DNA of 64,000 nt. Origin: an uncultured Acidimicrobiales bacterium. Lineage in GTDB: Bacteria; Actinomycetota; Acidimicrobiia; Acidimicrobiales; SZUA-35. Position numbers and translations under genes: made by a program. The first letter of the stretch is position 1. Each line of letters opens with the position of its first letter. The stretch covers positions 124,001 through 188,000 of the forward strand of contig CALIFY010000025.1 in NCBI GenBank assembly GCA_938021675.1. The letters run 5' to 3'. Below the pieces are notes generated by a model. It saw only the letters and a list, made by a program, of their open reading frames with translations, had not been told where the DNA came from and made no database searches. Shown piece after piece: positions 16,824-33,708 of this stretch.

Positions 16824-17735
16824 CTATCGGGTCGGGTTCGGGAGGACCTGTACGACCTCGGCAGCGTCGGCGAACAAGTCGCCACGACGAGCGACGCGGT
16901 CGATAACCGCGTCGGCGTCGAACCGGAGCGACGTGCCATCAGCACCGTCGCTCACCTCATCCCAGTCGATCGGCGTCGAGACCATCGGGTGGGACCGAGC
17001 CCGAAGCGAATACGGGGCGATGGTCGTCTTGTGTCGCGAGTTCTGCGACCAATCGATGAACACTTTTCCCTTCCGCAACGACTTTCGCATCTCGACCAGC
17101 ACCTTGTCGGGATGGAGCCGAACCATCATGTGGCCGACGGCTAAGGCAAAGCTCGATGCGTGCTGATGGGTGTGCGGGGAATTCAGCGGCACGTACACCT
17201 GCATGCCCTTCGAGCCAGACGTTTTGGCCACCGCCGTCAGGCCGACGGCGTCGAGTATTCCCCGCAGGTCGAGGGCGACCTGACAACACTCGACCAAGGT
17301 TGCCGGCTCGCCCGGATCGAGGTCGAACACCACCATCGACGGTGACTCGAGGTCATCGCACCGTGCCATCGGGCTATGAAGTTCGAGCGCCGCCATGTTG
17401 GCTGTCCACACCAACGCCGCCGCTTCATCTAGGCGGCAGTAGTCGATATACCCGTTCCGATCACCAGGGCCGGGGGCGGTGCCGAGCCATTCCGGCCGAT
17501 GGCCAGGACAACGCTTTTCGAAGAACGACTGCTCGTCGACGCCATCTGGCCATCGACGCAAGGTGATACATCGGTGGGAGACGTGAGGCAGCATGACCGG
17601 CGCCACTCTGGCGTAATAGTCGATGACCTGAGACTTGGTGAACCCGACGTCGGGGTACAACACCTTGTCGAGGTTCGAGAGGCGTAGCGTGCGTTCACCG
17701 ACCGAAACAACGACGGGTGCCTCTTTATGAGCCAT
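16824..17735 (-). CDS. Stand-alone LigD-type NHEJ polymerase (PolDom)
   Basis: 303 residues from the ATG at 17735. The open frame runs 72 Arg-rich residues further upstream into the Ku gene, which looks non-coding. The archaeo-eukaryotic primase fold is recognisable: HRCITLRRWPDG (54-65), metal ligands D138 and D140 in FDLDPGE, TSGSKGMQVYVP (172-183) and D228 in FIDWSQNS. In bacterial non-homologous end joining this domain fills ends with ribonucleotides and is usually fused to ATP ligase and nuclease domains in LigD. Here it is alone and 58 bp after Ku on the same strand, so a separate ligase gene is expected elsewhere. Confidence 0.92.
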   Translation of the reverse strand: MAHKEAPVVVSVGERTLRLSNLDKVLYPDVGFTKSQVIDYYARVAPVMLPHVSHRCITLRRWPDGVDEQSFFEKRCPGHRPEWLGTAPGPGDRNGYIDYCRLDEAAALVWTANMAALELHSPMARCDDLESPSMVVFDLDPGEPATLVECCQVALDLRGILDAVGLTAVAKTSGSKGMQVYVPLNSPHTHQHASSFALAVGHMMVRLHPDKVLVEMRKSLRKGKVFIDWSQNSRHKTTIAPYSLRARSHPMVSTPIDWDEVSDGADGTSLRFDADAVIDRVARRGDLFADAAEVVQVLPNPTR

Positions 17736-17793
17736 TCCGTGCCCCTTCCCGCTCAACGCGAAGCGACAGCACCGATCGGCTCGAACGGAACGA

Positions 17794-18648
17794 TCACGCC
17801 GATTTCGCCTCCGGCTCCTGAGACGATGAAGCCTCAGGCGCGTTCGGCTCTTTCGATGTCTTCCGAGCTTCCTTCGCTGCGGTGACGCTGGCTTCGAGTG
17901 CGGCGAGGAGATCGACGACCTGGGCATCATCGGCGGCGGCCGGCGCCTCAACGGTTTGCATCTCTCCCGCGGCCTTCGCTTCGAGAAGATCGAGCACCTT
18001 CTGGCGATAGGTGTCGCCGTAGCGGTCGGGCTCGAACTCGCCGGTGAGCGAATCGATGAGTTGACCGGCCATCGTCATCTCGGCATCTGTCACCTCGATC
18101 TCATCGAGTGCTTCCAGCCCGGGGATGTCGAGTTGCTCGACCAGCTCGTCGGCGTAGACCATGGTCGACATCATCAACGTGCCATTGGTGGGACGGATCG
18201 CCACCAGGTATTGCTTTGACCGCATCACAAAGCTGGCGATTGCAACACGACCACTCTGTTCGAGCGCCTTGGTCAACAACGTGTAGGACTTCCGGGCCAA
18301 CTCATCGGGGACCAGGTAGTACGCCGAGTCGTAGAAGACCGGATCGATCTCAGCTTCGCTCACGAAATCGGTGATGTCGATCATCCGAGAGGCCTTGGGG
18401 GCGACGGACGCCAACTCGTCATCGGTCACGATGACGTAGGAGTCCTTTGTCACCTCGTACCCCTTGACGATCTGTTCGTATGGGACTTCTTCACCGTCGG
18501 CGTTGACCCGTTTTTGTTTGACCCGGCTGTTGGTCTTCGAATCGATCTGGTTGAACCTGACCGCTTTGCGACTCACTGCGCTAAAAAGCTTGACCGGCAC
18601 CGAGACCAGACCGAAACTGATGGCGCCGCTCCAGATGGCTCGTGGCAT
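17794..18648 (-). CDS. ku: Ku family DNA end-binding protein
   Basis: 284 residues from the ATG at 18648 (MPRAIWSGAISFGLVSVPVK), with AAAGGA about 7 nt upstream; an earlier start at 18675 lacks support. The start region, the DSKTNSRVKQKRVNADGEEV segment, YYLVPDE and the dimer core are typical of bacterial Ku. The C-terminal 60 residues are Ala/Glu/Lys rich with a disordered tail. The homodimer encircles broken DNA ends and recruits LigD activities. The next gene downstream is a LigD-type polymerase, so the pair forms a two-gene end-joining operon. Confidence 0.95.
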   Translation of the reverse strand: MPRAIWSGAISFGLVSVPVKLFSAVSRKAVRFNQIDSKTNSRVKQKRVNADGEEVPYEQIVKGYEVTKDSYVIVTDDELASVAPKASRMIDITDFVSEAEIDPVFYDSAYYLVPDELARKSYTLLTKALEQSGRVAIASFVMRSKQYLVAIRPTNGTLMMSTMVYADELVEQLDIPGLEALDEIEVTDAEMTMAGQLIDSLTGEFEPDRYGDTYRQKVLDLLEAKAAGEMQTVEAPAAADDAQVVDLLAALEASVTAAKEARKTSKEPNAPEASSSQEPEAKSA

Positions 18649-18758
18649 ATCGGTCCTTTCGGTCTTCCCGTCCAAGTTCTGAACGCTTGTGGCCCAGGAT
18701 AATCAGTTGAATTCACGGTCTGCGTCACCGTCTATTCGCAGAGCCTAGACTCTTCTCC

Positions 18759-22461: not shown

Positions 22462-24219
22462 CTACTCAGGCGATGGGTCGACACGGGCGGCTATCGAGCC
22501 GGCATGATGGCTCGATCGAGTGAGCGGACTGGCGGCCACCTGGCCGATTCCCAACTCGTCCTCTCCGATGCGGCGAAGTTCGTCGAACTCGGTCGGCGTC
22601 CACCAACGGTGTATCGGAAGGTGGTGCGAGGTCGGCCTGAGGTACTGCCCAATGGTGACGATATCTATGTCTATCGCCGCCAGGTCGGCCAAGGTAGCGA
22701 CAACCTCGTCGAGGGTCTCCCCCATCCCGACGATTATTCCAGACTTCGTCGTCATGCCCCGCTGCTTGGCCCTGGCCAACAGGGCAAGACTTCTTGCGTA
22801 ACCGGCCGACGGCCGAACAGCCCGTTGGAGCCGGGCGACGGTCTCAATGTTGTGATTGAGGACGGTCGGCCCGGCGTCGCAGATCGTGTCGAGGCTGGTG
22901 CGTCGGCCCTGAAGGTCGGAGATGAGAACCTCCACTCCGACGTCGGGAGCGACCGCTCGAACCGCTCGGATGGAATCGGCGACGATGCTGGCGCCCCCGT
23001 CGTCCAAGTCGTCGCGGGCCACCATGGTCAGCACGACGAAGCGAAGGCCGAGCTCGGCGACCGCTTCGGCGATGCGGGCCGGCTCGCCGTCGTCTACAGC
23101 TTCCGGCTTTTGGGTATCGACAAGACAAAACCCGCAGGCACGGGTGCAGCGTTCTCCGAGCAACATGAACGTTGCGGTGCCTTCATTCCAACAATCGAAA
23201 ATATTCGGGCAGCCCGCCTCCTCGCACACTGTGGTGAGGTCGAGCGATCGCGCCGTCGCCTTCAAATTCCGGAAGTTCTCATCAGTCCGCAATGAGACCC
23301 GCATCCAAGATGGTTTTCGCGCCCCGATTTCGAGACCACCGTGAACGCCAGCCTGAGCCAGACGGCCACGGAGGCGCACCGCAACACCATCTCCCGATGT
23401 CGAGGTGGAAGCCGGCTTCGGGGGCGATGGCTTGACCACTTCGCCTGGTCCCATTCCTTTGGAAAACGGAGCCAGGTCGGATTGGCGATGACGGCGGACA
23501 ACGTCGCTGCGCTCGATCGGTCGCCCCGGCACGAGGTGACGTCCGGCGGCATCGACCAACAGGTCCAGAATCTCGTCGAGCTCAGCTTCGATGCCCTCGG
23601 CTCGCAGCGACGTGACCGCCTTGTCCGGGATCCCGCAGGGCACGATCGAGTCGAACCGTCCGAGGTCCGGGTCATGGTTCAGGGCGAAGCCATGCATCGA
23701 TCGACCGCGAGACAGTCGAACTCCGATCGCCGCCACCTTGCGGGGTTCGGCGCCGCCCGGGTCGATCCAAACACCGGGATGGCCGGCGAGCCGTCCGGCG
23801 TCAAGACCGAAATGGGATACCACGTCGACCAACATCTCCTCGACCGCGGCGACGTAGGCCCGGGTGTCAGCCATGCCCCCACCTCGTTTACCCGGCAGGG
23901 TGAAGATCGGATAGCCAACGATCTGCCCTGGCCCATGGAAGGTGATGTCACCTCCTCGGTCCACCCGCGTAACCTCGACACCGATCTGTTCGGCATCGAC
24001 CAGTAGATGTTCGAACTTGCCAGACCGACCAAGGGTGTAGATCGGCGAGTGTTCGAGTAGTAACAGGTGGTCTGACCGTCCGGCGTAGAGCTGGCGTTGA
24101 AGATCCCATGCCTCGTCGTATTCAACCCGACCAAGCCAACGAACGCGAAACGGAACCGGTTCTTGGCGCGACAACCTGGCCGGCGTAGTGACCGTTGCGT
24201 CCGAAATAGCAGCCGTCAT
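22462..24219 (-). CDS. lipBA: Fused octanoyltransferase-lipoyl synthase (LipB-LipA)
   Basis: 585 residues combining both enzymes of de novo lipoylation. LipB occupies about 23-235, with RGGDITFHGPGQ (88-99), K161 and catalytic Cys195 (VPCGI); it moves octanoyl from acyl carrier protein to the E2 or GcvH lysine. A Pro/Ser-rich linker spans about 255-297. LipA occupies 298-580, with auxiliary-cluster cysteines C332, C337 and C343, radical-SAM cysteines C358, C362 and C365 in CTRACGFC, and the C-terminal RSS (568-570) that supplies the serine ligand; it inserts two sulfurs. All key residues of both halves are present and the frame is uninterrupted. It lies downstream of the E2 gene whose product it should modify. 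Confidence 0.93.
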   Translation of the reverse strand: MTAAISDATVTTPARLSRQEPVPFRVRWLGRVEYDEAWDLQRQLYAGRSDHLLLLEHSPIYTLGRSGKFEHLLVDAEQIGVEVTRVDRGGDITFHGPGQIVGYPIFTLPGKRGGGMADTRAYVAAVEEMLVDVVSHFGLDAGRLAGHPGVWIDPGGAEPRKVAAIGVRLSRGRSMHGFALNHDPDLGRFDSIVPCGIPDKAVTSLRAEGIEAELDEILDLLVDAAGRHLVPGRPIERSDVVRRHRQSDLAPFSKGMGPGEVVKPSPPKPASTSTSGDGVAVRLRGRLAQAGVHGGLEIGARKPSWMRVSLRTDENFRNLKATARSLDLTTVCEEAGCPNIFDCWNEGTATFMLLGERCTRACGFCLVDTQKPEAVDDGEPARIAEAVAELGLRFVVLTMVARDDLDDGGASIVADSIRAVRAVAPDVGVEVLISDLQGRRTSLDTICDAGPTVLNHNIETVARLQRAVRPSAGYARSLALLARAKQRGMTTKSGIIVGMGETLDEVVATLADLAAIDIDIVTIGQYLRPTSHHLPIHRWWTPTEFDELRRIGEDELGIGQVAASPLTRSSHHAGSIAARVDPSPE

Positions 24220-24288: not shown

Positions 24289-25740
24289 TCAGGCTAGTTC
24301 GCCTTCCCAGTCACGTGTCTCGATGATTTCTTTCACCCTGGCCAGGAACGCGGCAGCGTATGCGCCGTCGATGGCTCGGTGGTCCCATGCCATCGCCAAC
24401 ACCCCGACGGAGTGAATGGCGATCGACTCGTTGCCATACTCGTCTGTGACAACTACCGGCTTACGGTTGACGGCGTCGGTCGACAGAATGGCGACCTGCG
24501 GCTGGTTGATGATCGGGAACTGCATCATCGTTCCGTACGAGCCGGCGTTGGTCAGGGTGAAGGTTCCGCCCGACAGTTCGTCCGGCGACAGCTGCTTTTC
24601 CCGGGCCCGGCGAGCGACATCGACGATATCTCGGGCGATGGCCCGCATCCGTTTGCCATCAGCGTCTCGGACGACGGGGGCAAGAAGGCCCTGGAAGTCG
24701 AGGTCGACCGCAACAGCCAGGTTGACGTAATTGTGAACTATCAGCTCGCGGTCGCCTACCGACGCATTGAGATGCGGGTATTCGCGGAGGGCGTCGATGG
24801 TGGCCCGGGAGATGAACGGCAGGTACGTGAGGCTGAAGCCCTCCTGGGCTTTGAACTCGGCACCGTGGGTACGACGTACCTGCTCCACACCCTCGTAATC
24901 GATTTCGATTGCGGTGAGCGTATGAGGAGCAACCGCCTTCGACATCACCATGTGTTCGCCGGTGCGGAGCCTGATATTGGAGAGGGGGACGACCGCGTCG
25001 CGCACCCCGGCTTGGGTCGGAGGCATCGGAATCGGGCTGGCGGGGGCGGCGTTTTCAACCGCGGCCGGTGCCGCCGAAACAGCGACGGATCCCTCCACAG
25101 CCTCGGGCGCCGGAGGCGTCGCCGGTGCGCTATCCGGGTCTTGAGACGCCAGCCTGTTGGCCTCAATATAGCGTTGAACGTCATCTCGACTAATTCGACC
25201 ACCGAGGCCGGTGCCTTCGATCTGGTCAGCGTCGATGCCGTACTCAGCGATCAGGCGCCGGACGACAGGAGAAAGAACCTTGCCCCTGGTGTCGCCGGTC
25301 GTCTCCGTGGACGCCCGAGCCGGTTCAGCGGTCGCCGGCGGTGCGGTCGCCGCCGGGGCGGGAGCCGGAGCAGGTTCAGCCACCGGGGCAGGAGCCGGAG
25401 CAGGTTCAGCCGCCGGGGCAGGAGCCGGTTCGGCGGTCTGCGTCGGAGTTGACTCGGTGGGCGGGGCGACGGTTTCCGGTGGAGCGGCGTCAGCTGGGGA
25501 CCCAGCACCGTCGCTTAATACGGCGAGGACAGTACCGACCTCAACCGTGTCACCTTCGGGAACCCTGATTTCGGCCAGCGTTCCGGCTGCCGACGAAGGC
25601 ACCTCGGTATCGACCTTGTCGGTCGATACCTCAAATAGCACCTCATCCAAAGAAATAGTGTCACCGACGTTCTTGAACCAACGGGTGATCGTTCCCTCGG
25701 TGACGGTTTCGCCTAGCTGGGGCATCTCGATTTCGGCCAC
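24289..25740 (-). CDS. sucB: 2-oxoacid dehydrogenase E2 (dihydrolipoamide acyltransferase, SucB/DlaT type)
   Basis: 483 residues, GTG start with GAGGAG about 11 nt upstream. A single lipoyl domain (2-77) carries the lipoyl-lysine K42 in STDKVDTE. An Ala/Pro-rich swinging linker (about 80-150) is followed by the E3-binding domain (about 155-195, SPVVRRLIAEYGIDADQIEGTG) and the catalytic domain from about 250, with the active-site motif WDHRAIDG. It transfers acyl groups from lipoamide to CoA. In actinobacteria one such E2 can serve both pyruvate and 2-oxoglutarate dehydrogenases. Lpd lies 48 bp upstream and lipBA 69 bp downstream, and a matching AceE is encoded at 31.0-33.7 kb. Confidence 0.92.
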   Translation of the reverse strand: MAEIEMPQLGETVTEGTITRWFKNVGDTISLDEVLFEVSTDKVDTEVPSSAAGTLAEIRVPEGDTVEVGTVLAVLSDGAGSPADAAPPETVAPPTESTPTQTAEPAPAPAAEPAPAPAPVAEPAPAPAPAATAPPATAEPARASTETTGDTRGKVLSPVVRRLIAEYGIDADQIEGTGLGGRISRDDVQRYIEANRLASQDPDSAPATPPAPEAVEGSVAVSAAPAAVENAAPASPIPMPPTQAGVRDAVVPLSNIRLRTGEHMVMSKAVAPHTLTAIEIDYEGVEQVRRTHGAEFKAQEGFSLTYLPFISRATIDALREYPHLNASVGDRELIVHNYVNLAVAVDLDFQGLLAPVVRDADGKRMRAIARDIVDVARRAREKQLSPDELSGGTFTLTNAGSYGTMMQFPIINQPQVAILSTDAVNRKPVVVTDEYGNESIAIHSVGVLAMAWDHRAIDGAYAAAFLARVKEIIETRDWEGELA

Positions 25741-25788: not shown

Positions 25789-27195
25789 TTACCCGTGAAG
25801 CGACCGGCCGGTAAGCGCAAGAACGCTCTCTCCGAACAGTTCGCTCATCGTCGGGTGCGGTTGGATGAATTGAGCCACCTCGTCGACGGTAGCTTCCCAG
25901 TTAACGGCCAGGTAACCCTGACCGAGTTGTTCTGTAACCCACGGACCCACCATGTGGACGCCGAGGATTCGTCCACCGGTACCGTCGGCGTTAGCCTCGG
26001 CGATTATTTTGACCAGTCCGTCCGTTTGACCGACGATCATGGCTCTTCCGTTGCCGGTGAATCGATGCTTCGAAACCACGACGTCGTATCCAGCGGCTCT
26101 TGCCGACTCTTCAGAGTGACCGGCGAACGCTACCTCGGGGTGGCAGTAGATACACCACGGAACCTTGTCGTAGTCGACAGGCATGGTCCGTTCGCCGAGG
26201 ATGTCGGTGATAACCAAGATGCCTTCGGCAAAACCGATGTGGGCCAATTGGGCGGTCGGTATCAAATCGCCAACAGCCCAGACACCCGGCACCGAAGTAC
26301 GACAATTCTGATCGACGGTGACAAAGCCGCGCTCGTCGACCGCCACCTGGGTGGCATCGAGGCCGAGCGTCTCGGAGGCGGGACGCCGCCCGATCGACAT
26401 CACCACGGTCTCGGCCGTTACGGTCTCCCCGTCGCCGAAGGTTACGGTGACATCGTTGGCGGTACTTGTCTGCGATTGAACTGCGACACCTGTGCGAATG
26501 GTTATGCCACGCTTCTTGAACGAACGTTCCACGACTTTGGTCACATCGACATCGCAGCCGGGCAGGATTTTCGGGAGGTATTCGAGAATCGTGACCTCGG
26601 TGCCCAGGTCCGACATCATCGAGGCGAACTCGCAACCGATCGCACCGCCGCCGATGACGACCGCCGACGATGGGAGTTCAGGTATCGACAACAGCTCATC
26701 GGACGTAACGATCCGTCGTTGATCGATGGGAAATCCGTCCATCGTGCGGGGAACCGATCCGGCGGCCAACACGATGTGGTCGGAGGAAATTTCAACGTCA
26801 CCAGACTGGCCGCCGCTGATGGCAACGGTCCGATGATCTGAGCGAAGCACACCGGTGCCGTCGAAGACGGTCACTTTCCGGCCCTTCAATAAGCCGGTCA
26901 ACCCACCGACCAGCTGATCGACGATTCCCTGTTTCCGGGTCATGGTCTGTGACCAGTCGAGACCGAGAGCATCGGCCTTGACGCCGAACTCGCCGGCATG
27001 GGCGACCGTTCGCCACACCGCAGCGGTTTCGAGAAGCTCCTTGGCCGGAATACATCCGACGTTAAGACACGTACCGCCAAGCTTGCTTTTCTCGATGATG
27101 GCAATGTTCAACCCGGCCGACGCGCCATAGAGGGCAGCGGCGTAGCCACCGGGACCTCCGCCGATCACGATGACGTCAAACTGCTCGCTGCTCAG
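25789..27195 (-). CDS. lpd: Dihydrolipoyl dehydrogenase (E3)
   Basis: 468 residues from a CTG at 27195. FAD motif GGGPGGYAAA, redox-active disulfide GGTCLNVGCIPAKE, NAD-binding GGGAIGCEFASM and the C-terminal active-site HPTMSE are all present. It reoxidises dihydrolipoamide with NAD. The start is uncertain. The only strong ribosome site, GGAGG (27204-27208), overlaps the GTG at 27204 that gives the longest frame, but lies 8 nt before CTG at 27195, which suits initiation there. It is the first gene of the lpd, E2, lipBA group. Confidence 0.92.
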   Translation of the reverse strand: MSSEQFDVIVIGGGPGGYAAALYGASAGLNIAIIEKSKLGGTCLNVGCIPAKELLETAAVWRTVAHAGEFGVKADALGLDWSQTMTRKQGIVDQLVGGLTGLLKGRKVTVFDGTGVLRSDHRTVAISGGQSGDVEISSDHIVLAAGSVPRTMDGFPIDQRRIVTSDELLSIPELPSSAVVIGGGAIGCEFASMMSDLGTEVTILEYLPKILPGCDVDVTKVVERSFKKRGITIRTGVAVQSQTSTANDVTVTFGDGETVTAETVVMSIGRRPASETLGLDATQVAVDERGFVTVDQNCRTSVPGVWAVGDLIPTAQLAHIGFAEGILVITDILGERTMPVDYDKVPWCIYCHPEVAFAGHSEESARAAGYDVVVSKHRFTGNGRAMIVGQTDGLVKIIAEANADGTGGRILGVHMVGPWVTEQLGQGYLAVNWEATVDEVAQFIQPHPTMSELFGESVLALTGRSLHG

Positions 27196-27227
27196 TGGTA
27201 CCACCTCCGTTGAACTTCTGGGCCGAT

Positions 27228-29835: not shown

Positions 29836-30795
29836 TCAAGGGATCTCGATAACGCCGAGGCCCTGTTCATCAAGGTTGTTCGCCGCGGCCTGATCGCCGA
29901 CGACGATGACACCAACGACCGATGTCCACATCCAGGCGTCGCGGCGTTTTACCGAAACCGACGGCGTCCCAGGATCCCCCTCAAGGGTCACGGTCCACTT
30001 GGCAGCCGAGGTGCATCCCTGGAAACGAGCCAGGGTCTGCCGGGGCCATCGGGAGGCAGGATCCGGGTATGGGAGGACAACCGCCAAGGGCACCCCGTGG
30101 GTGACCGCAAGCTCGGCTCCATCTAGTTCCGTACCCCGTCGAAGGCCGGACACCAGAATGTCGTAACCGGGGTCGAGACCGGCGATGGCTTCGGTCAGCG
30201 CCTCTCGCTGTTCGTCGTCCATTTCACGGACGCCGGTGACGGCGATCGCCCGATCTATCGGCCACGGCGCCACCGGACCGACAGGGCTCGATCCTGTCTC
30301 AGCCGACGGGCTCGATCCTGTCTCAGCCGACGGGCTCGATCCTGTCTCAGCCGACGGGCTGGGTTTGAACTTCGCCGCCTCTTCGACCGCCATCGCATCG
30401 ACCAAATCGTTCATCTCGTCGCCGGAGTGACCCTTGACCCATTGGAACTCGATCTCGTGCTGGCGCGACAGGTACAGGTCGATAAGCGGTTCCCAAAGAT
30501 CGCGATTCGCCACCGGCTTCCGTTGAGAGTTACGCCAGTCACGTCGGAGCCATCCCTCGTACCACTTGTCGACAAAGCAGTTCACCACATAGGTGGAATC
30601 CGAGTGGACGGTAACCTCACCCTCTAGGGCCCGCAGGGCTTCGAGAGCTGCCTGTAGCTCCATCCGCTGGTTGGTCGTCGTTTCCTCGCCGCCGCTGCCA
30701 CGTGGTCCGTTGGCCACGGCCCAGGCCCATCCCCCCGGTCCCGGATTGCCAGAGCATGCTCCGTCGGTAAATACGTCGACCCGTTCCTCAGCCAC
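29836..30795 (-). CDS. RNase HI fused to a SLOG/YpsA-like Rossmann domain
   Basis: 319 residues, GTG start. Residues 5-140 are RNase HI with D11, E47, D66, H123 and D133 all in place (FTDGACSGNPGPGGW, NQRMEL, HSDSTY, KGHSG, NDLVDAMA), so RNA in RNA-DNA hybrids should be cut. Residues 147-170 are three copies of SPSAETGS. Residues 181-319 resemble SLOG domains of the YpsA/DUF1273 type: IAVTGVR, ILVSGLRRGTELDGAELA, VVLPYPDPASRWP and GVIVVGD. SLOG domains bind nucleotides or nucleotide-like ligands. The fusion suggests regulated RNase H activity, which is inference. It diverges from aceE. Confidence 0.85.
   Translation of the reverse strand: MAEERVDVFTDGACSGNPGPGGWAWAVANGPRGSGGEETTTNQRMELQAALEALRALEGEVTVHSDSTYVVNCFVDKWYEGWLRRDWRNSQRKPVANRDLWEPLIDLYLSRQHEIEFQWVKGHSGDEMNDLVDAMAVEEAAKFKPSPSAETGSSPSAETGSSPSAETGSSPVGPVAPWPIDRAIAVTGVREMDDEQREALTEAIAGLDPGYDILVSGLRRGTELDGAELAVTHGVPLAVVLPYPDPASRWPRQTLARFQGCTSAAKWTVTLEGDPGTPSVSVKRRDAWMWTSVVGVIVVGDQAAANNLDEQGLGVIEIP
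30284..30360. repeat. Tandem 24-bp repeat in the RNase HI-SLOG linker
   Basis: Three identical 24-bp units at 30284-30307, 30308-30331 and 30332-30355, plus 5 bp of a fourth. The period is a multiple of three and encodes SPSAETGS on the minus strand. Perfect identity suggests recent expansion. Confidence 0.95.
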
Positions 30796-31017: not shown

Positions 31018-33708
31018 ATGAGTGACGACGGGTTTCTGAGCCAGCTCCCCGACATCGATCCCGAGGAGACGTCTGAGTGGCTTGAGTCACTCGAGATCGT
31101 CAACAACGCAAAAGGGAAGACGAGGGCCAGGTATCTCCTGGGCCGACTCAACCAATACGCCCGCGAACTTCAGCTGGGCAACGCCGTTTCGATCTCCACC
31201 GATTACGTCAACACGATTCCGACCGAGGAACAGCCGTTCTTTCCCGGCGACGAGGAGCTGGAGCGACGTATCCGCCGCTACGTTCGGTGGAACGCCGCGG
31301 CCATGGTCATCAGGGCCAACAAGCGGTCCGACGGCATCGGCGGCCACCTGTCGACGTTCGCTTCCTCCGCTGCGCTGTACGAAGTCGGGTTCAACTGGTT
31401 CTTCCGAGGCAAGGAAGACGGCAACCCGGGCGATGCCGTCTACTTCCAAGGCCACGCCGCCCCCGGCATCTACGCCAGGGCGTTCCTCGAGGGTCGTCTC
31501 GACGACGCCAAACTGAACAACTTCCGTTTCGAGGTCGGCGGCGGCGGGCTATCGAGCTACCCGCATCCACGGTTGATGCCCGACTTCTGGGAGTACCCGA
31601 CCGTCTCGATGGGTCTCGGGCCGATCAACTCGATCTACCACGCCCGGTTCCTTCGGTACCTACAGCACCGCAAGATCGACCAGACGGCCGATTCCCGGGT
31701 CTGGGCCTTTTTAGGTGATGGCGAATGTGATGAGCCGGAGACGCTCGGTTCAATTTCGTTGGCCGGCCGGGCGGGACTGGACAACCTCACCTGGGTTATC
31801 AACTGCAACCTGCAACGGCTCGACGGCCCGGTGCGGGGCAACGGAAAGATCATCCAGGAACTGGAAGGTGTGTTCCGGGGGGCCGGCTGGAACGTCATAA
31901 AGGTGGTGTGGGGGTCCCGGTGGGACGAGCTCCTGCAACGAGACGTCGATGGCGTGCTGTTGAACAAGATGAACACCACGGTCGACGGCGAGTTCCAGCG
32001 CTACGCCGTAGAGTCCGGCGCATACATTCGTGAAAAGTTCTTCGGTCCGGATCCACGGCTGCGGAAAATGGTCGAGCACCTGAGCGACGACGACCTCCGT
32101 GCCCTTCCCCGGGGAGGGCACGACTACCAAAAGGTCTTTGCGGCATACAAGGCGGCCAGCGAACACGTCGGTCAACCAACCGTCATCCTGGCCAAGACGG
32201 TCAAGGGATGGACGCTCGGGCAAGGCTTCGAGGCTCGAAACGCCACCCATCAGATCAAGAAGATGACGACCAACCAGCTTCTGGAGTTGCGGGATCGTCT
32301 GAAGCTGCATGAGGAGATTCCGGAATCGTCGCTAAGCGATGGGATGCCCCCGTACTACCGTCCCGCCCCAGAGTCCCCTGAGTATCAATACATGATGGGC
32401 CGACGCAAAGCCCTCGACGGGCCGCTCCCCCAGCGGATCGTGCGCGACCGCCGACCGCTCCCGATGCCCACCGATGCGCCGTTCAAACCGACCGAGGAAG
32501 GTTCGGGCGGTCGAGCGGTGTCAACCACGATGGTCTTCACCAACCTCCTTCGCGACCTGATGCGGGAGGAGGGCTTTGGCGAACGGGTCGTGCCCATAGT
32601 TCCGGACGAGGCTCGAACGTTCGGAATGGACTCCATGTTCCGAGAGTTCGAGATCTACGCCCCGTTCGGGCAGCTCTACGAGCCGGTCGATCACGAGCTG
32701 TTGCTGTCGTACACCGAAGATTCAGACGGCCAGATTTTGGAAGAAGGCATCACCGAGGCCGGCTCGATGGCATCGTGGATAGCCGCCGCCACCAGCTACG
32801 CCCACCGCGGCGTCACCATGGTGCCGTTCTACACGTTCTATTCGATGTTCGGGTTTCAACGGGTCGGTGACCTGATTTGGTCGGCAGCGGATTCCCGGGC
32901 CCGCGGATTCCTGATGGGGGCGACCGCCGGTCGGACCACGCTGGAAGGCGAAGGGCTTCAGCATCAGGACGGGACCAGCTTGCTTTCGGCCTCGACCGTG
33001 CCGGCCTGTCAGGCCTACGACCCTGCGTTTGCCTATGAGCTAGCCACCATCATCCAGGATGGCTTGCAACGCATGTACGTCGACGGCGAGGACATCTTCT
33101 ACTACCTGACGATCTATAACGACAACTATGAGCAGCCGGCAAAGCCCGAAGGGGTCACCGGGGGAATCCTCGAAGGGTTGTACCGGTGGGCCGTCGCGCC
33201 GGAAGGCCCTGAAGCCAAGGCCACGATCCTGTTTTCCGGGCCGGCCCAACGGGCGGCGCGAGAGGCCCAGGCCGAACTCGCCGAACGGTGGCGGGTAGGC
33301 GTCGATCTGTGGAGCGCGACCAACTACAAACGGCTTCGAGAAGAGGCGTTGGAGGTTGAACGTTGGAATCGACTTCACCCGACCGACGAGCCTCGGCTGC
33401 CGAGGGTCACCTCGTTGCTGGCCGAAGTCCCGGGCCCGGTTATCGCCGTCAGCGACTATGTCCGTGCGGTCCCTGAGCAGATCTCGGCGTTCGTACCGTC
33501 ACGATTCCTGGCCCTCGGGACGGACGGCTACGGCCGTTCCGACGATCGACCGTCGCTTCGGTCGTTCTTCGAAGTGGACACCGCACACGTGGTGATCGCT
33601 GTGTTGAGCGAACTGGCCATCGACGGTTCGGTCGACCGGTCGGTCTTGGCCGATGCGGTAGCGCATTACGGCATCGACACCGATACCACACCACCCTGGA
33701 CGCGTTGA
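31018..33708 (+). CDS. aceE: Pyruvate dehydrogenase E1, homodimeric type
   Basis: 896 residues, the usual length for AceE. The N-terminal thiamine diphosphate domain has the GDG...N motif ([11 protein letters not shown], then [17 protein letters not shown]). Other family stretches are [50 protein letters not shown]-like [19 protein letters not shown] and EGLQHQDG. It decarboxylates pyruvate and acetylates the E2 lipoyl group. In actinobacteria AceE works with a SucB/DlaT E2 and a shared Lpd; matching genes are 4-7 kb away in this window. It stands alone on the plus strand. Confidence 0.96.

Follow-up and report, generated by a model that had tools for sequence, protein, structure and literature searches.

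A LipB-LipA fusion, lipBA, clustered with its likely E2 substrate and widespread in the Acidimicrobiia

Lipoic acid, an essential cofactor, is built on other proteins by LipB and LipA, which work one after the other on the same lysine. LipB takes octanoyl from ACP on a Cys residue and passes it to the Lys of a lipoyl domain, LipA inserts two sulfurs by means of radical-SAM and auxiliary clusters (PMC9307952, PMC12246082). The stretch of DNA that we have analyzed, hereafter the window, has 64,000 nt (positions 124,001 to 188,000 of contig CALIFY010000025.1, assembly GCA_938021675.1, from an uncultured Acidimicrobiales bacterium). It contains a gene in which both enzymes appear in one reading frame. 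Is this a genuine fusion, how widespread is it, how did it arise and what may the joined enzymes do?

The gene, lipBA, lies on the reverse strand at 22462..24219 and codes for a fused octanoyltransferase-lipoyl synthase of 585 aa, as judged from the reading frame and from Pfam and NCBIfam. Its frame starts with an ATG at 24219, has 585 codons without any internal stop, and its stop codon ends at 22462. The LipB half (residues 24–239 approximately, 23503..24150) is followed by a linker (residues 240–299, 23323..23502), delimited by the family alignment and AlphaFold2 pLDDT values, and by the LipA half (residues 300–578 approximately, 22486..23322). Three Pfam domains are found: LplA-B_cat (34–223), LIAS_N (300–337) and Radical_SAM (354–512). 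The protein scores above the NCBIfam cut-offs both for LipB (NF010925, 192.7 with a cut-off of 155; TIGR00214, 141.5 with a cut-off of 83.55) and for LipA (TIGR00510, 333.7 with a cut-off of 310.25; NF004019, 372.4 with a cut-off of 203); it is below the cut-off in the three narrower LipB models NF010923, NF010921 and NF010922. Sequence matches to Mycobacterium tuberculosis structures are found for the LipB half (1w66, E 5.1e-46) and the LipA half (5exi, E 3.8e-84). When the predicted model is aligned with known structures, the LipB half matches 1w66 (Z 30.3) and 2qhs (Z 29.5), the LipA half 5exk (Z 42.5). The single uninterrupted frame proposed in the first-pass annotation is thus confirmed in strand, coordinates and content.

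Both sets of active-site residues are intact at the positions previously named. We have followed them in 202 distinct complete fused proteins, the window protein included. Lys161 (23737..23739) and Cys195 (23635..23637) of the LipB half are present in all 202; we take them to be the catalytic pair, after the Cys/Lys dyad of M. tuberculosis LipB. In the RGG...HGPGQ motif, R88, G89, G90, T93, H95 and G98 are each invariant (202/202), G96 is found in 197 proteins, P97 in 196 and Q99 in 201. All six cluster cysteines of the LipA half are also invariant: the CX4CX5C motif (C332/C337/C343, 23191..23226) and the CX3CX2C motif (C358/C362/C365, 23125..23148, within CTRACGFC at 358–365), which provide the ligands of the auxiliary and the radical SAM [4Fe-4S] clusters, respectively, according to PMC12246082. 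Close to the C-terminus, RSS (568–570) is conserved in 201 of the 202 proteins, with a gap in the other one, and S570 is expected to be the fourth ligand of the auxiliary cluster. The window protein has RSSH (568–571, 22507..22518), a variant of the RSSY motif; position 571 is Y in 156 fused proteins, H in 42 and F in 3. RSSY is found in all 21 separate LipA sequences of our tree, compared with RSSH in 42/202 fused proteins. We do not count this as an oddity, since His is permitted at the fourth position of the motif according to PMC13232139.

The genes directly upstream of lipBA, on the same strand, code for an E2 acyltransferase (24289..25740, identified by Pfam and NCBIfam), with one N-terminal lipoyl domain (25516–25734), and for the dihydrolipoyl dehydrogenase E3, lpd (25789..27204; TIGR01350, 499.7 bits, cut-off 408.8). 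They are separated from lipBA and from each other by gaps of only 69 and 48 nt. The window therefore contains a one-strand cluster where modification enzyme and target are together, as had been claimed for this locus. Nearby, on the forward strand, we find aceE, coding for a homodimeric pyruvate dehydrogenase E1 (31018..33708; TIGR00759, 1326.7 bits, cut-off 859.9). The upstream E2 is a likely substrate of the fusion, judging from the gene sequences. We conclude that lipBA is a genuine LipB-LipA fusion, which keeps both sets of active-site residues and is clustered with its E2 target. Two unrelated features of the window, seen by eye, may be mentioned: a frame at 29836–30795 (reverse strand), with an RNase H-like part and a C-terminal domain, whose linker contains the unit SSPSAETG three times, and two adjoining frames at 16824–18675 (reverse strand) which resemble end-joining proteins, a polymerase of LigD type and Ku.

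In its own genome, lipBA is the sole match to the fusion protein. Besides the E2 of the window, a second E2 and a single GcvH are candidates for lipoylation; the remaining four Biotin_lipoyl matches are biotin-dependent carboxylases. The only other match to the ligase fold is a 285-codon LplA-like frame (L257:1255-2109, G000:C93:9302-9772), which reaches 52.2 bits for LplA-B_cat (cut-off 27) and only 24 bits for a lipoate ligase model. It could possibly be a divergent ligase or an amidotransferase, so lipoate salvage may also take place.

The Acidimicrobiia are a large class, for the most part uncultured, and the fusion is found in most of the genomes sampled from it. We sampled the order and the class with 148 genomes each, which makes 274 distinct ones including the genome of the window, and LipB and LipA are in a single frame in 256 of them. 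This is the survey of co-occurrence across Acidimicrobiia which the first-pass annotation had suggested. For 160 genomes the count is based on a single match which reaches both halves, a few of them partial (for example G138, G143, G063, G103 and G213), and for 69 on fetched loci with both domains within one stop-to-stop frame; 25 more fetched loci and two cases partial at contig ends (G021 and G239) complete it. Among the 69, the evidence is thinnest for G128 (L191), whose contig stops 36 residues into LipA, which follows LipB in frame. A stop was present within the match in five of the 160 genomes (G119, G024, G117, G103 and G228), yet the fetched loci present a fused frame. The 18 remaining genomes include four with pieces at contig edges (G055, G233, G269 and G125), 13 where we found no usable match to the fusion (G010, G037, G046, G068, G094, G122, G196, G199, G229, G241, G244, G248 and G272) and one with a lone LipB. 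Five of these 13 (G122, G272, G196, G199 and G229) are rated 91–96% complete.

The best 80 of 495 relatives also have a fused lipBA in all 80 loci, which is not an independent count, since these are the best matches and they overlap with the sampled genomes. Their titles correspond to Acidimicrobiia, unspecific actinobacterial or bacterial MAGs, Candidatus Poriferisocius and Candidatus Aldehydirespirator, with a single Bifidobacterium breve label. The MAG contig so labelled (L088) has a fused lipBA 56% identical to that of the window; the label is probably wrong.

The lone LipB is found in G223 (L296:1483-2283, G223:C15), in an intact-looking frame of 267 codons whose catalytic Lys and Cys are kept, as seen by eye. 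No LipA above the cut-off was found in this genome, which is 85% complete. The best matches of this LipB among the fetched loci are the LipB halves of fusions (52% identity, as against 44–45% for separate LipB), so it may be the result of a secondary split, to judge by its sequence. Another genome, G191, has a second, separate E2-lipB-lipA set (L206, G191:C83) beside its fusion (L205). Since this set falls with outgroup sequences in the trees, contamination or gene transfer is likely.

The situation outside the class is different. In a sample of 396 genomes of the phylum Actinomycetota, a profile of the fusion matched 322, of which 285 are from outside the class; of the 38 class members, 37 were matched. 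The 37 class matches cover both halves. Five of them contain one stop (G110, G142, G153, G162 and G168). We take this to be the profile overrunning the end of the gene at the C-terminus, because the frames proved either fused (G110, G142 and G153) or stop-free (G162 and G168). Among the matches listed, to about E 1e-124, 15 from outside the class run from LipB into LipA, and none is stop-free: each has at least one in-frame stop, and four of them start only from the end of LipB. We have also read 20 outgroup loci (L236–L255), seven of which have no LipB within the fetched stretch, and LipB was not found within the frame of LipA in any of the 20. Separate genes at this locus, which might have spoken against the fusion, are only found outside the class, where they look ancestral; inside it the sole exception is the lone LipB of G223.

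Other actinobacterial groups have lipB and lipA as separate genes. In four genomes (G380, G458, G431 and G306) they have the same order as in the window; in three of these (G380, G458 and G431) they adjoin each other without a change of frame, and E2 directly precedes lipB in G458, G431 and G306. Unlike in lipBA, stop codons lie between the genes. In L236, L237 and L238 lipB and lipA share a reading frame, and their stop-to-stop frames are separated by only 12, 24 and 18 nt, counting the stops. In L238 lpd, E2, lipB and lipA are consecutive separate genes. The same order is found in L237 and L250, where lpd and E2 lie 2 to 3 kb apart; lpd directly adjoins E2 in L238 only.

Gene order is conserved in the class. 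For 109 fused loci, 3.5 kb or more of the preceding sequence is available; the same genome may be represented twice in some cases. A same-strand E2 is found upstream in 102 of them and lpd in 106. In a tree from the concatenated halves, with 23 fused and 14 separate sequences, the fused ones form one side of a branch (98/96), also present in 96% of 200 bootstrap trees. They also group together, with a support of 87, in a LipA-only tree of 23 fused and 21 separate sequences. The LipB-only tree needs two changes, with one outgroup LipB grouping with two fused sequences (89, not starred); a single fused clade is not rejected by the LipB data (p-AU 0.48). The most likely origin is therefore a single merger, at the base of Acidimicrobiia, of adjacent lipB and lipA genes which already followed E2, kept since then: the lpd-E2-lipBA order is conserved and unfused relatives keep the E2-lipB-lipA order. 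The trees are unrooted; we consider the fusion as a gain rather than a loss because the genes are separate in every outgroup judged, so that separate neighbouring genes look like the ancestral state.

Several other explanations should be considered. The assembly of the genome of the window has 99 contigs, and an assembly or sequencing error might have joined two separate genes, one of the objections anticipated in the first-pass annotation; such an error is ruled out for practical purposes by the fused frame in 256/274 genomes, single-contig ones included (G002, G006 and G134). The fusion may have arisen more than once, or have spread by gene transfer, within Actinomycetota. Repeated fusion would be easy, since same-frame neighbours only 12–24 nt apart exist outside the class (L236–L238 and others), and the two changes required by the LipB-only tree point in the same direction. 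Against this, none of the 15 spanning matches listed from outside the class is stop-free and the concatenated tree corresponds to one origin with the high support given above, so we consider several origins improbable. A further alternative is that the frame is fused as described, while separate LipA is also, or mainly, made, from a start inside the linker or by cutting of the chain. Some in-frame start codon is present in 192 of 201 linkers, and in the window an in-frame GTG is preceded, at a distance of about 10 nt, by GGAG, seen by eye. Nevertheless, starts preceded by a Shine-Dalgarno-like motif are found in 73 of 201 linkers, compared with 83.5 expected from stretches of the same length inside LipA. 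They are not enriched, and we have rejected an internal start of LipA; production of separate LipA by either route is very unlikely.

The linker itself is variable. Its length goes from 10 to 163 residues, with a median of 50, and an F[ST][RKQ] motif is found in 139 of 202 fused proteins. It had been described as a Pro/Ser linker, which holds for the window, where it is rich in Pro, Ser and Thr, but not for the family as a whole, where Ala, Gly, Arg, Val and Asp predominate. The G+C content by codon position is 0.74/0.58/0.72 in the linkers and 0.69/0.48/0.76 elsewhere, a weaker periodicity than in the domains. AlphaFold2 gives pLDDT values of about 56–66 for residues 241–280 of the window protein, followed by a helix at 281–289.

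Are the halves joined by a flexible string or do they dock? For the window protein, AlphaFold2 was given an alignment of 83 sequences of the class; the model has a mean pLDDT of 91.5 and a pTM of 0.91. A second model, for L181, whose linker has only 18 residues, was obtained with 95 sequences (mean pLDDT 93.6, pTM 0.94). The two alignments have no locus and no sequence in common; 6 of the 95 rows share 90% identity or more with some sequence of the first alignment, and one of these 6 reaches 99.5%. We would not expect pTM values as high as these from freely moving domains, so the models suggest a fixed mode of docking of the two halves despite the variation of the linker. When compared with LplA-like structures by VIA-align, matches to the first model end at residues 480–489 in 20 of 22 rows (517 and 518 in the others), and those to the second model at 428–437 in 20 of 22 rows (228 and 466 in the others), which is the same LipA helix after an offset of 52 residues. 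Both models thus appear to place the helix 474–486 (22762..22800) on the LipB half in a similar way, as suggested by the first and last residues of the aligned ranges, in predictions of a kind that can pack domains wrongly. We have also carried out a mean-field coupling analysis of the 202 sequences (effective number 58.3, reduced alphabet, 10 block shuffles). The top coupling between halves is 0.788, compared with at most 0.599 in the shuffles, and 30 of the top 100 couplings are between halves, compared with at most 7 in the shuffles, which also break the relatedness of the sequences; an even share would be 51.4. None of the 25 top pairs between halves has a partner in the helix 474–486, so this analysis lends no support to the modelled contact.

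The first-pass annotation had suggested that the fusion may channel octanoyl-protein directly to sulfur insertion; two views of the protein may be compared. The fusion may only be a tether, which supplies equal amounts of both activities on one chain, with the halves as independent beads without docking, hand-over or kinetic gain. The range of linker lengths, the low pLDDT of residues 241–280 and the coupling analysis, which does not indicate the modelled contact, agree with this, as does the fact that fusing genes need not by itself yield channelling (PMC4921024). The pTM values of two models from alignments with no sequence in common, one of them with a linker of 18 residues, are higher than expected for free halves, and the fusion has been retained in the class, with a single possible secondary split in G223. 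Taking both sides together, a simple tether is a serious candidate at somewhat below even odds. The other view, more tentative and rather doubtful, is a rigid machine with two active sites, drawn from the models: the LipA barrel would be docked on LipB, partly through helix 474–486, at the face of LipB which corresponds to the end of the catalytic domain in LplA. The octanoyl-lysine of one bound lipoyl domain would swing from Cys195 to the radical-SAM site without the domain leaving.

Our main reading, to which we give a probability of about 0.88, is that lipBA codes for a bifunctional enzyme for both dedicated steps of lipoyl assembly, fused once at the base of Acidimicrobiia and kept since then. 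Frame, spread, sites, gene order and tree are observed, activities and substrates follow what is known of the families, and docking comes from models. The LipB half would take octanoyl from octanoyl-ACP onto Cys195 and pass it to a lipoyl-domain lysine, in the E2 of the adjoining gene, in the second E2 or in GcvH. The LipA half would then add one sulfur each at C6 and C8 of the octanoyl-lysine, using its radical-SAM cluster (C358/C362/C365) and consuming its auxiliary cluster (C332/C337/C343 and S570).

Each half resembles a known enzyme. The N-terminal half has the fold of M. tuberculosis LipB (1w66), with 49% identity and with the Lys/Cys dyad and RGGxxTxHGPGQ present; it differs in carrying a second enzyme on its C-terminus. 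The C-terminal half has the fold of M. tuberculosis LipA (5exk), with 45% identity, the six cluster cysteines and RSS; it differs in an N-terminus extended by linker and LipB, and in the His at the fourth position of the motif. A similar arrangement is known from the NCBIfam family NF053790 (LplA_LipA_fuse), in which LipA is also preceded, on the same chain, by an enzyme that attaches lipoyl groups, and whose LipA part matches. Its name indicates that the enzyme in front of LipA is a lipoate ligase instead of LipB, and the window protein scores 324.2 bits, far below its cut-off of 800, with only profile positions 331–604 of 606 matched, the LipA part. We have not found any description of a LipB-LipA fusion in the titles and abstracts of the open literature; PMC5962788, PMC7771536 and PMC12008989 make no mention of lipoyl or lipo-, octanoyl- or fusion terms. 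The architecture may already be listed in UniProt or InterPro. LipB, LipA, their neighbouring genes and the ligase-LipA fusion were known before; what appears to be new is a LipB-LipA fusion extending through a class.

In summary, the structure of this gene is a compact marker for Acidimicrobiia: 256 of the 274 sampled members have the fusion, and it is absent from the matches and loci judged outside the class. In a limited literature search we found no paper which settles whether LipB and LipA cooperate physically. A fixed docking, as modelled, would fit a coordinated handling by the two halves. If true, it would suggest a meeting place of LipB and LipA in bacteria with separate genes, where the docking face seen in the models may reflect a transient complex which also forms there. 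In any case, a fusion kept through the class points to a working LipB-LipA partnership, and offers it as a single chain for structure and kinetics.
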